From IMG/VR virus record IMGVR_UViG_3300042381_000268, positions 1 through 62,871 of that record: a stretch of DNA of 62,871 bases, one strand, 5' to 3'. Source of the stretch: a virus. Every line of letters begins with the position of its first letter. The stretch's first letter is position 1. Both the position numbers and the translations under genes were made by a program. This document shows positions 18,874 to 56,839 of this stretch, piece after piece. Under the pieces are notes generated by a model that worked only from the letters and a program-made list of their open reading frames with translations, was not told where the DNA came from and made no database searches.

Positions 18874-21800
18874 TTATCCGTTGTCATAAACGGTATCATA
18901 ACTCCATACTCCTAGGTATTGTATTAATGGCCTACCATATACGCCTGGGGTGTTCATATTTTCTTTTATAAATCTAACTGAAAATCCATAAGTTTTTACG
19001 ATGTCATTTTCATTGTAAGCAAGAATTGGGGAGTCGGCTCTTCCTATTCTAAAAAAAAAGTAACGTAAATTACCCGCAAATGGATCGTTTGTGGTTGATG
19101 ATGTCCAATAATTTGCCTCAATACCCCTCCTTCCAAATCCAATATTATCTAGTGGATTTTGTATTCTAAGCCCATTAGATATTGCGGTAAACCTAAGATT
19201 GTCATTACTAGCAGGGGTAGTGTCAGTTGGCCAATGTGCCGTGCCTATCTCCCTCCAAAAGTTACCTTTGCGATTTATATCACCTGTTTGTCCATACCCA
19301 CGATATATGGCCCATTGTAAATCCGTAAAATGACTATTAGTCGGTATGATCCACCCATAAGGGGCAAGTCTATTACTAGGAGAAGCCCCACCAGGGGTCC
19401 TAGTGCTCCACCAATTGTATAATTTACCGTATGTTTCCGAATTGGTTGGATCATTATTGTAATTACAATATGCACCAACTGTAGCGCTATTCCATTCTGC
19501 ATGAGTTATTTTTTCAGGTATATTTGTACCGTCTCTATATGTTGTACCATTAAAATTCTTTGTTGTCCAAACATTACGGTATACTCTTGGTTGACCACCG
19601 TCTACATACGCAATATCTACATAAGTTGACTCTAAATCAGTAAATAAGCCAGCGTCCCAACAAGTTTGAACATTGAATTTAACATTTGCTCCTTGATTAG
19701 CGTTTACATATACTCTGCCTTTTTCGCCTAAATTCATGCAATACAATGGATTATCCGAAACTTTCCCAAGCAATAATGAGTCTGTTACGCCAACTCCTTT
19801 CATATTTTGAGAGGTTTGAGTTTGTACAACATAAAATTTATCCGCAACCGGAGGTTCCCATTTTATTGTACATAAGTCATTCCTGTATAACTGTCTTATA
19901 GAATTTCCAAACTTTGTTCTAGCATATAATGTTCCTGAATTATCTTGTGACTGCTTAATTATAATAATATCGCCTACAGCCAATGTATTTGGGGCAGTAG
20001 GGTTAAATCTAAATGTTGTACTATTTGTTACTGTTTCTACAAACCCTATTGGTTCAGCCGCAGATGGAGATTTTATACCAGCAGGCACTCTCCAAACAGT
20101 CATGCCAGGAGACATATTATTATTTTCATTATACACCTTCTGTACATTTGGGGCAGCTGGAGGGCTCAATAGTTGATCGTTATAAGGCGTTCCAAGAGCT
20201 CCAAAAGTTATTATTTGAGAACCAGAAGGCCCCGCAGTTACAACTGTTGTTTTATACATTACAGAACTAAATTTTAAACTTGTTCTATTATCTTGCAAAT
20301 GGAAAGGTATACTATCCAAATAAGGAGTAGCTCTTTGGTATAAACCGTTAATAATGGTATCCTGCATTCCTGTTTTATATTCATATACCTCATTTGTTAT
20401 AGGAGTGGTATTATTAAATATAAACTTTGGTGGCATTGTGGGAGTTATAGTTCCGCCCCAAGTACCATCATAATAAAAGTTAGCGTCGTGTACATAAACC
20501 ATTGCGTTAGCTCCTACAGAATTAAGAGGGGCGGTACAACCTGTGCTCGTATCAATCAAAACCAAAGTTAAAGCCCATTCATAATCTATGCCGTCTTGCG
20601 GGGCAGCTGTTGTAAACGAGGTCATTCTAAATCCTTTCTCGTTTTTTGCACAATCTAATTTTATTGCTAAAAAGTTTTCTCCATATTTACCAGGGTTGGC
20701 GGTGGGGGATGATACTGGATAATTATAAATAAACCCAGAATTAGCGGGGATAGTAGTTATTCCTGATTTATATCTATCCAGGAAATTTGAATTTATAGTG
20801 CCGGTATCAAAAACATTGTTATCGTCAGTTATTCTGCTCCATGTATTTATATTAGGTTGGTTATTAGTAGCTGCTGGACGCCTCCATAAACGGGCCAATA
20901 ATGAGGCTTCTTGTATAGTTCCGTTAGTATCAGATGTTGTGCCTCCTAAAACTACGGTCCATCGCAATGTTCCTTTTTTAAAACCTACAGTGGCAGGTAA
21001 TGGGGATGATGGCGTAGGTAAATTTTGTATATTTACAGCGGTTTCAATATTAACAAATCTTTGGTAATTTTGTGTAGTGTTTGTGCCAAATTCAAAAGAG
21101 CCAAGAACAGGGGTAGCAGGCAATTGACTTCTAGCTGTAGTATTCCCTAAAACAGCATCAGATGTGTTATTTAATAATGGTTCTTTCCCTACATATACAA
21201 CTCCATATTTAACATTTGTGGTACTTAAAGGAGCAGTTAACCCGGTAGGAGAAGTAATTGGAATGCAAACTCCACCGGTATTGCTTTGGTTATATAAGAA
21301 ATTATTTTCTGTAATATAAGGTTTTATTTCACTATTAACAGGTGGGGGCACAACATTAATGACTACTTTTGCAACAGTATATAAACTTGTATCTCCTCTT
21401 GAAAGATTACTTATTGGCCCATTGGTCTCCTCGTAATCTGGGCCAGGTAATGTAGCGTCAGTTAATTTTACTACTATTTCATATGAGTCGTAATCTTCTA
21501 ACTCCACTTCATCCGCAACTCTTAATGCTCCTGTTAAATTATTTATTGAAAACTTATTAGAGTCATCAGAAGTTTCTATTTCCCAGTACAGCTCTTCTTG
21601 ATTAACAGAAGTGGTATATGCACCATTAACACCTGTTAATGTATCTATGTTTATGTCACTTGAAGTGATATTATATGTTAGTATACCCGCGCCCCCCTCT
21701 ATAATTGGTTGTGCGTTACCCAATTGAACTTGATCAGTTATTGAAAAAGTATAATTATTAATAGACCCTGGTATTGGGTATGAGAATGTTATAGTAAATG

Positions 21801-52292: not shown

Positions 52293-52364
52293 GGTTAATA
52301 TGCGAAATGGGATTACGCGCCATACTTTGATATGGAGATAGGGGTTCGACTCCCCTGTTAACCA
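52293..52364 (+). tRNA. tRNA-like gene, possibly tRNA-Gln(UUG), with an odd anticodon loop
   Basis: 72 bases. Acceptor GGTTAAT/GTTAACC (7 bp, one G-T), D-stem GCG/CGC with GGG in the loop, anticodon stem CCATA/TATGG, and a perfect T-arm AGGGG-TTCGACT-CCCCT. The anticodon loop is CTTTGA, only 6 bases, or 8 if the last A-T pair opens. The standard position gives anticodon TTG. CCA is not encoded. A real tRNA is likely; the identity is not secure. Confidence 0.6.
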
Positions 52365-52372
52365 CAAGATGT

Positions 52373-52411
52373 TTACAATATAAACACGACAGCGAAATGA
52401 TAATATAAATG
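52373..52411 (+). promoter_or_regulatory. Three-box early promoter, copy 8
   Basis: TTACA-N6-ACACGA-N8-TGATAATATAAATG, 18 bases before the gene at 52430 and 8 bases after the tRNA-like gene. Confidence 0.75.
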
Positions 52412-55300: not shown

Positions 55301-55774
55301 ATGGCTAAAGCAAAAAAATTAAATTTAAAGACCGTACTAGACGAAATATTCCTTGAGGGCGGCGTAAGTTATAATGTAACTACTGGCGAAGTTAATCCTA
55401 AGTCTGGCTATATGGTTAGTATATTAGGGTTCGAAAAACAATATGACCTAGATACCATAAAAGCTAATGATCTTCGCGAGTATGTATTAGACAATGCTTA
55501 TGATCTATGGGGTGAGAATAGATTTGTAGGCGGCTGGATAAATACAGATACCAGCAAAGTTGTATTAGATGTTTCAGTAAACATTACGGATGTGACAAAT
55601 GCCTGTTATACCGGTATTATTAACCAACAAAAGTGTATATATGATTGTAGTAATAAACGTAATATATCTTTACCTTCACCTCAAACTGCAGGAACTGAAG
55701 TACAAAAGAAAGCGTATGCGAAAATGAAAGCAGAACAGTTAGCGTATTTATTAGAAACTACTGGTGTTGAGTAG
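55301..55774 (+). CDS. Hypothetical early protein
   Basis: 157 residues. N-terminus KLNLKTVLDEIFLEGGVSYN then a globular part with several Trp and Cys residues (WGENRFVGGWIN, NACYTGIINQQKCIYDCSNK). Likely a family of conserved but unnamed phage proteins. It precedes the non-coding tract. Confidence 0.5.
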   Translation: MAKAKKLNLKTVLDEIFLEGGVSYNVTTGEVNPKSGYMVSILGFEKQYDLDTIKANDLREYVLDNAYDLWGENRFVGGWINTDTSKVVLDVSVNITDVTNACYTGIINQQKCIYDCSNKRNISLPSPQTAGTEVQKKAYAKMKAEQLAYLLETTGVE

Positions 55775-56129
55775 TTATAGTGCTATACACGGTTGTTCAC
55801 TAGAGTGCACGTATGTGGTGCCGTGTTATTTACCATTTGAGATGAACAACGCGCCTAAGTTAACGGGTAACAAAGCGGGCCGGCAACTCCGGGTAGCGAA
55901 TGGTTGAGCGTGGGAAACAGCACGTAATGCTGAATAAATTGTATGATCACTGGGAACTATAATCGCCACAAAACAGTTTAAATAGTCAATGTATGTGCTG
56001 CGTATCATTGAACTTACCTATATCATATTTTGTTGATTATTTCGGGGTTACGGAAACATTGTCCAATCAGTGCTGGTTGGTTGTAATCGAAACGCAAATA
56101 AAGTAGTAACCGGCTTGCGAGTCAACTAA
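55775..56129 (+). other. Non-coding tract with local hairpins
   Basis: About 355 bases without a credible gene and with higher GC than neighbouring genes. Small hairpins are visible: CCGG-CAACT-CCGG (about 55880) and CAGCA-CGTAA-TGCTG (about 55919). GCTATACAC occurs at its left edge (55782). GGAACTA (about 55955) could pair with TAGTTCC at 56194-56200. A structured RNA is suspected; no known class fits by eye. Confidence 0.4.
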
Positions 56130-56199
56130 GAACTAAGTATGGTTTGCCATTAGCAGAACACAACCGACGGGTTAAGGGGTTCGATTCCCCTTTTAGTTC
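56130..56199 (+). ncRNA. tRNA-like RNA element B
   Basis: Ends form an 8 bp acceptor-like stem (GAACTAAG with TTTAGTTC), and the 3' part is a canonical T-arm AGGGG-TTCGATT-CCCCT. Between them are two hairpins, ATGG-TTTG-CCAT and AACC-GACG-GGTT, joined by TAGCAGAACAC. No normal D-arm or 7-base anticodon loop fits: only 37 bases lie between acceptor and T-stem. The layout matches element C just downstream. Confidence 0.5.
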
Positions 56200-56205
56200 C
56201 AAATT

Positions 56206-56295
56206 GTCGAGATTGATGTAACTGGGAATGAATACCAGCTAGGGTAACACGGTGTAATACTACACTTCATAAGGGTTCGAATCCCTTATCTCGAC
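56206..56295 (+). ncRNA. tRNA-like RNA element C
   Basis: 8 bp acceptor-like stem (GTCGAGAT with ATCTCGAC), canonical T-arm AAGGG-TTCGAAT-CCCTT, and two internal hairpins, CTGG...CCAG and GTGTA-ATAC-TACAC, joined by CTAGGGTAACACG. The joining sequence TAGNNNAACAC is shared with element B. A class II tRNA with an unusual core is the conventional alternative. It ends 12 bases before promoter copy 12. Confidence 0.5.
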
Positions 56296-56307: not shown

Positions 56308-56346
56308 CTACAGTCTGGACACGATCAAATAATGATAATATAAATG
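56308..56346 (+). promoter_or_regulatory. Three-box early promoter, copy 12
   Basis: CTACA-N6-ACACGA-N8-TGATAATATAAATG, 19 bases before the gene at 56366. It appears to drive seven genes to 58817. Confidence 0.75.
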
Positions 56347-56365: not shown

Positions 56366-56839
56366 ATGAATATATTTTATTTATCTGAAGACCCTAATGA
56401 AGCGGCTAAGTATATGTATAACAAGCATGTAGTAAAAATGATCCTTGAGTCTGCGCAATTATTATGTACCGCTCATATCATTTCTGACGGCGAAGCTGCT
56501 GATGTTCCTTACAAAGCAACGCATAAAAATCATCCGTCTGCAATATGGGCACGTGAGTCTGTATCTAACTATATATGGTTGTATGATCATATGATTGCAT
56601 TGGGTAATGAGTATACACGTCGTTATGGCAAAAAACATTTAACAATATTAAAGTGTAGCGGCGCATTATGTAAAGCTCCAAACAATGTTACTAAAGTCGA
56701 TCTAACGCCTATGCCACAATGTATGCCTGATCAATACAAAGTTCCCGGCAATAGTGTAGAAGCATACTGGAATTATTATGAAGCAGAAAAAGTAAGCGTA
56801 AAAAACTCAAACGAAAGTATAATAACTAGACCTAAATAA
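56366..56839 (+). CDS. Conserved phage protein, KHVVKM/KNHPSAIW family
   Basis: 157 residues. MNIFYLSEDPNEAAKYMYNK then HVVKMILESAQLLCTAH, THKNHPSAIWARES and EYTRRYGKKH are the conserved blocks of a widespread phage family. His, Lys and Trp conservation suggests an enzyme; members are sometimes labelled as pyrimidine-dimer glycosylases, which I cannot confirm. The next gene looks like a DNA glycosylase relative, so a DNA-repair or base-modification role is a reasonable guess. Confidence 0.55.
   Translation: MNIFYLSEDPNEAAKYMYNKHVVKMILESAQLLCTAHIISDGEAADVPYKATHKNHPSAIWARESVSNYIWLYDHMIALGNEYTRRYGKKHLTILKCSGALCKAPNNVTKVDLTPMPQCMPDQYKVPGNSVEAYWNYYEAEKVSVKNSNESIITRPK

Follow-up and report, generated by a model that had tools for sequence, protein, structure and literature searches.

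Two tRNA-like RNAs without an anticodon arm in a phage genome, one of them a member of a previously undescribed RNA family

Two adjoining tRNA-like genes, RNA1 (56130-56199, + strand) and RNA2 (56206-56295, + strand), lie at the 3' end of a noncoding gap in a phage genome, and neither of them has an anticodon arm. The window, i.e., the whole stretch of DNA analyzed here, is an IMG/VR virus record of 62,871 nt, and the gap spans 590 bases between a gene ending at 55774 and a gene starting at 56366. RNA1, recognized by its sequence, an alignment of 15 sequences, covariation, a covariance model, and purifying selection, is by these comparisons a member of a previously undescribed RNA family that occurs in about 50 IMG/VR phage contigs and is missing from Rfam. 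RNA2 is recognized by its sequence and by a T-arm and acceptor that stand above chance. We consider it fairly probable that both phage RNAs are small and stable, imitate a tRNA in its upper half only, are excised by tRNA enzymes, and perhaps carry histidine.

The terminase of the phage matches that of a circular Manatee Spring genome at 65%, and the capsid resembles that of the same genome. Since terminase and capsid also resemble those of flavobacterial phages (Flavobacterium phage elemo, Cellulophaga phage phi38:1/Calle, and Maribacter phage Panino), a flavobacterium is the probable host. The gene adjoining RNA1 has relatives in 68 contigs, and the 3' half of RNA1 has matches in 16 contigs. 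In GTDB bacterial genomes, the 3' half had no exact match and there was no sign of prophages. When the region, RNA1, and the sister type of RNA1 were compared by BLAST with named phages, only chance matches of T-arm size were obtained. None of the isolates examined carries RNA1; the clade of the window is freshwater.

In RNA1, the strands GAACTAAG and TTTAGTTC form a terminal stem of 8 pairs, the last of which is G.U. The two hairpins are ATGG-TTTG-CCAT (hp1) and AACC-GACG-GGTT (hp2; 56162-56173, + strand), the linker is TAGCAGAACAC, and the T-arm is AGGGG-TTCGATT-CCCCT (56175-56191). In tRNA numbering, G-1 is at 56130, followed by the 5' acceptor strand (56131-56137) and by hp1, which begins at 56138; the 3' acceptor strand (56192-56198) is followed by C73 at 56199 and C74 at 56200. 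The terminal stem of RNA2, formed by GTCGAGAT and ATCTCGAC, likewise has 8 pairs; its hairpins are CTGG..CCAG and GGTGTA-ATAC-TACACT, its linker is TAGGGTAACAC, and its T-arm is AAGGG-TTCGAAT-CCCTT (56271-56287). Here G-1 is at 56206, the acceptor strands are at 56207-56213 and 56288-56294, and C73 is at 56295. This layout of 8 bp terminal stems, two hairpins, a linker, and a TTCGA T-arm had been described in an earlier sequence-only reading of the DNA, and we recovered it in place in both RNAs. Thermodynamic folds are unremarkable by themselves (z of -1.5 for RNA1 and -1.2 for RNA2), so the case for structure is made by conservation and covariation.

As read from the aligned sequences, the acceptor, a variable hairpin, a near-invariant GACG-loop hairpin, and the T-arm meet in a four-way junction in the RNA1 family. 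Membership was tested by a covarying four-way junction with the GACG-loop hairpin, which RNA1 has, and the covariance model found matches in about 50 contigs. An alignment of 15 RNA1 sequences shows almost no variation in the acceptor, in the hairpin RRCC-GACG-GGTT, and in the T-arm, and a variable length where hp1 lies, the whole interior measuring 28-62 bases. Shorter relatives whose acceptors differ (AACCGC/GCGGTT, AACCAG/CTGGTT, and AGCTAG/CTAGCT) were also found with the model. A pattern built from these relatives led to 30 contigs, nearly all of which were confirmed by the covariance model, mostly at 29-45 bits. They have a six-pair acceptor, an hp1 that opens with GTATGG and closes with TAC, the hairpin TACT-GACG-AGTA, and the T-arm TGAGG-TTCGATT-CCTCA. 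The 4-bp hairpin hp2 with its GACG tetraloop is the signature of the family and occurs in compensatory variants (RRCC-GACG-GGTT, TACT-GACG-AGTA, AACT-GACG-AGTT, and CACT-GACG-GGTG); the GACG loop is present in 19 of 21 hand-aligned family members, and in the 30 extra contigs it is present by construction, being part of the search pattern.

With alignment blocks anchored on the GACG and TTCG loops, 10 of the 17 pairs show two-sided compensatory changes among 24 distinct sequences, and 98.5% of cells are paired; in the 30 extra contigs the 5' acceptor strand was placed partly by pairing, so their acceptor counts lean towards the structure. Compensatory cells number 66, compared with 24 in shuffles, none of 500 shuffles was as good, and slid structures came nowhere near. 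Because the family is conserved with a fold of its own, we conclude that the RNA1 molecule itself is under selection.

RNA1 and RNA2 have in common the half made of acceptor plus T-arm and a G-1:C73 pair. The sequence-only reading had taken them for one family with a shared core, a claim that did not hold. The linker TAGNNNAACAC was rejected as a family signature: its match of 8 out of 11 bases is at chance level (in 63% of shuffles, 1267 of 2000, the best 11-base match reaches at least 8), and the corresponding stretch is unrelated in 14 RNA1 orthologs. The covariance search proposed in the same reading found relatives of RNA1 across the phage clade and had no match at RNA2 at E up to 5, which places RNA2 outside the family. 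Since the RNA1 model misses RNA2, the two are, by this comparison, not one family. No relatives of RNA2 were found in IMG/VR with two exact patterns. A 7-bp acceptor with a 5-bp TTCGA T-arm occurs three times in the window, compared with 0.1 per shuffled window, and two such units were held by none of 3000 shuffles of the intergenic gap. The case for RNA2 consists of this structure above chance and the same G-1:C73 signature.

To place the register, C74 was used as a ruler: it comes directly after N73 in all 47 distinct canonical tRNAs of these phages, in 14 of 14 RNA1 sequences, and in RNA2. In register, RNA1 reads G-1, AACTAAG...TTTAGTT, C73, C74, and RNA2 reads G-1, TCGAGAT...ATCTCGA, C73, C74, and the 7 + 5 geometry of both is canonical. 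The eighth acceptor pair had been regarded as a plain stem extension, and this was replaced by the G-1:C73 reading once C74 fixed the register. The tRNA-His type of acceptor, with G-1 paired to C73, was found in all 14 RNA1 sequences, which count as one evolutionary event, and in the single RNA2. C73 occurs in 0 of 47 canonical phage tRNAs as against 15 of 15 sequences (14 RNA1 sequences and RNA2), and G-1 in 2 of 47 as against 15 of 15; cellular tRNA-His of Bacteroidota has both in 28 of 28 cases. The G-1:C73 pair is the main histidine identity element. As HisRS charges 13-bp minihelices bearing this pair (PMC9976931), histidylation of RNA2 and of the RNAs of the RNA1 clade is possible. A larger sister group of RNA1 has A73, any base at -1, and 11 rather than 12 bases from the T-loop to N73, which excludes histidylation as a function common to the whole family. 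The histidine reading would at most apply to the clade of the window and to RNA2.

A separate structured RNA, module C (56032-56126, + strand), ends 3 bases upstream of RNA1. It is closed by GTTGAT/GTCAAC, has the inner helix GGTTAC/GTAATC, and is supported by covariation, with two-sided changes in 9 of 13 pairs among 13 sequences and none of 500 shuffles reaching that number. Further upstream (55780-56031, + strand) is a mosaic of other stem-closed noncoding RNA modules, recognized by their recurrence in related phages; its parts include the hairpin TGCTATACACGG..CCGTGT, CGTGGGAAACAGCACGTAATGCTGAA, and CCATTTGAG..GCGAATGG. The order and number of the modules vary among related phages (window 55780-56126; contigs L207-L233). 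No Rfam family matched in the noncoding array, and none matched the mosaic modules. On the other side, 3' of RNA2, lies the promoter-like motif ACACGA-N8-TGATAATAT (56319-56341, + strand), which was recognized by its repeat count: AYACGA-N8-TGATAATAT has 13 copies between 49529 and 58854 of the window, all on the + strand, where 0.27 are expected. In 16 of 16 records examined, the motif lies 20-510 bases 3' of RNA1. Since it comes right after RNA2 and follows RNA1 in all of these records, the two RNAs appear to close an operon.

Other unusual T-arm RNAs were observed in the window and in related phages. A third T-arm RNA of the window (52293-52365, + strand) is a cloverleaf with a 6-base anticodon loop and A73 (ARAGORN tRNA-???; Rfam tRNA 41 bits), located directly 3' of a gene and upstream of the copy of the promoter-like motif at 52384-52406. 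It belongs to a set of tRNA genes whose anticodon loops have 6 or 8 bases and which have A73 and are otherwise cloverleaves, the others being L229 4156-4228, L232 4108-4180, and L221 1592-1664. In tRNA-Leu-like RNAs of L247-L256, L203, L221, L232, L275, L277, and L279, a conserved domain of about 72 nt (CTGYACTGAGGTTAAGCGATCCTCAC..GATCAACGCAGRAGTGCGG) stands in place of the anticodon and variable arms, and some of these RNAs have an extra hairpin in the D-loop. RNAs of a GGGCRTG type (L225 from 2020; L226 1673-1775, - strand; L236 from 680, - strand; L242 from 1090) have G3:U70 and A73, which are alanine identity elements, and no visible tag ORF; one of them scored 34.8 bits with the tmRNA model, below the cut-off, and they are possibly minimal tmRNA derivatives. 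Full phage-encoded tmRNAs are present at L221 530-846 (- strand), L222 541-858 (- strand), and L218 165-520, and the tags of the first two have 33 residues according to ARAGORN, which is unusually long. A tRNA-like RNA at L271 438-498 (MW202828 record 637-697) has acceptor, D-arm, and T-arm, with an 11-base single strand replacing the anticodon arm. The cultured Cellulophaga phages phi38:1 and Calle carry a 140-nt RNA with a tRNA acceptor, a T-arm, a partial D-arm, and a 108-nt interior (L265, - strand, 518; L281, + strand, 297). The non-canonical T-arm RNAs of phi38:1 include one at record 20678-20817.

For RNA1 and RNA2, we propose transcription as part of an early operon whose end is a series of structured noncoding modules. 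Given known enzyme specificity, host RNase P would cut the 5' ends of the two RNAs, and the tRNA 3' machinery would mature and CCA-tail their 3' ends, because these enzymes require nothing beyond the stack of acceptor and T-arm. Model substrates reduced to acceptor, T-stem, and T-loop are cleaved by RNase P, and so are phage RNAs such as M3 (PMC11143913); tRNA processing of RNA1 and RNA2 is a sensible expectation. Excision would free the small RNAs and at the same time set the 3' end of the upstream RNA. In RNA1, the variable hairpin and the near-invariant GACG-loop hairpin take the place of the D and anticodon arms. Less certainly, the G-1:C73 pair may make these RNAs of this clade substrates or competitors of the host histidyl-tRNA synthetase; once histidylated, they would carry histidine and yet not decode. 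Candidate binding partners are HisRS, EF-Tu, or another tRNA-handling protein.

A canonical T-arm and acceptor, with 12 bases from the T-loop to N73, are found in RNA1 as well as RNA2 and would suit ordinary tRNAs, either class II ones or ones whose anticodon arm is unusual, that had been overlooked by programs. An ordinary class II tRNA was also the fit that the sequence-only reading had itself named as decisive against mimicry. We regard it as hardly credible: neither RNA was called as a tRNA by ARAGORN or Rfam, and the tRNA model (RF00005) gave no match at the gathering cut-off, nor at E up to 5. An arm with a 5-bp stem, a 7-base loop, and U33 was found neither in RNA2 nor in the 15 aligned RNA1 sequences, whereas the tRNAs of phi38:1, used as a positive control for the search, gave one clean match each. 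The earlier description of the two as tRNA mimics without an anticodon loop, rather than ordinary class I or class II tRNAs, is thus borne out. Both are also without a classical D-loop, and for this reason a tRNA elbow is uncertain. It is very unlikely, in our judgment, that they are decayed tRNA genes, even though related phages have tRNAs with odd anticodon loops and intermediate forms. In comparisons between phages, divergence is 0.043 at the acceptor and T positions of RNA1 and 0.50 at four-fold degenerate sites of the adjacent gene, which rules out decay for RNA1 and shows strong purifying selection on its acceptor and T-arm. The distinct covarying fold in about 50 phage contigs also speaks against pseudogenes; RNA2, which has no relatives, is outside this argument.

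In mitochondria, tRNAs act as processing cut sites, and RNA1 and RNA2 might serve as punctuation only, releasing the neighboring mRNA and noncoding modules while the excised RNA itself is useless. Their position between operons and just before promoter-like motifs would fit such a role, as would the conservation of acceptor and T-arm, which suffice for RNase P, next to an hp1 that is free to vary in length. However, the GACG hairpin and the base of hp1 are kept with compensatory changes, which would be needless in a bare cut site, and because the GACG hairpin is conserved, RNA1 seems to be more than that; we think it unlikely that punctuation is the whole explanation. We are equally doubtful that the RNAs act as decoys or inhibitors of a host tRNA-handling protein, be it a defense nuclease or modifying toxin acting on the acceptor or elbow, HisRS, EF-Tu, or SmpB. 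In favor of this role, the tRNA-like upper half is conserved without a decoding function, both RNAs have the histidine signature, and the fast variation of hp1 would suit an arms race. Yet any target would be hypothetical, and the decoy for anticodon nucleases suggested in the sequence-only reading is unlikely as stated, since neither RNA offers an anticodon loop.

Beyond the favored reading of RNA1 and RNA2 as excised tRNA-half mimics, it is conceivable, as a tentative idea that we rate on the low side, that phages of this clade make aminoacylated, non-decoding RNAs with the identity elements of anticodon-independent synthetases, and that during infection these occupy or redirect a synthetase, EF-Tu, or an aminoacyl-tRNA-dependent enzyme. 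Histidine would be specified by G-1:C73 (RNA1 and RNA2) and alanine by G3:U70 together with A73 (the GGGCRTG type), and a further type would combine A73 with a leucine-type D-arm. Charged RNAs would mean that phages use aminoacyl-RNAs beyond translation; if they are uncharged, the family would still be a new structured RNA, and the way in which noncoding RNA modules are arranged at operon ends would be new too. Phages related to those with the RNA1 family include cultured ones (Cellulophaga, Maribacter, and Flavobacterium phages), and the processing, charging, and target of RNA1 and RNA2 become directly testable.

Several known systems can be compared with RNA1 and RNA2. The tRNA-like domain of tmRNA is also an upper half of a tRNA without an anticodon arm, with GG a few bases after the acceptor. 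RNA1 and RNA2 differ in having no tag reading frame and no pseudoknots, and in their length (60-110 nt as compared with >300). The alanine identity pair G3:U70 is absent as well, 3:70 being C:G in RNA1 and G:C in RNA2. The tmRNA model (RF00023) matched only the T-arm of RNA1, at 14 bits against a cut-off of 47, and the same Rfam search recovered the full tmRNAs of related phages; without a tag ORF or G3:U70, RNA1 was rejected as a tmRNA. Plant-virus tRNA-like structures resemble RNA1 and RNA2 as viral RNA mimics of the acceptor half of a tRNA. They are the 3' ends of RNA genomes and have a pseudoknotted acceptor, whereas RNA1 and RNA2 would lie inside DNA-phage transcripts and have a regular acceptor stem. 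In those that are histidylated, the N-1:N73 pair is recognized by HisRS (PMC9976931). Bacterial tRNA-His shares the geometry of a 7-bp acceptor and 5-bp T-stem as well as G-1 and C73, but RNA1 and RNA2 have none of its GG-loop D-arm, anticodon arm, and GUG anticodon. The tRNAOther of Bacillus cereus is a tRNA-like RNA outside translation (PMC3399842); it is cellular, and it is likened here by description and not by sequence.

The closest precedent is RNAC of phage T4 (species 1 RNA), together with RNAD. T4 has provided examples of non-decoding tRNA-like phage RNAs since the 1970s. RNAC is a stable RNA that the phage encodes at the end of a cluster of RNA genes, as RNA1 would be; it has a long non-tRNA interior, and its canonical T-arm (CCGGG-TTCGAAT-CCCGG) stands beside an acceptor-like strand, as in the plan of RNA1; it also has no Rfam family. 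It is visible on northern blots, and its role is unknown (PMC9697503). Unlike RNA1, it has no GACG hairpin and has U rather than C at 73, no sequence relation between the two was seen, and its acceptor, if read as CGATTCG/CGTTTCG, has 2 of 7 pairs mismatched. Non-decoding tRNA-like phage RNAs are therefore a known kind, and what is new here, as far as sequence comparison goes, is a defined fold with covariation.
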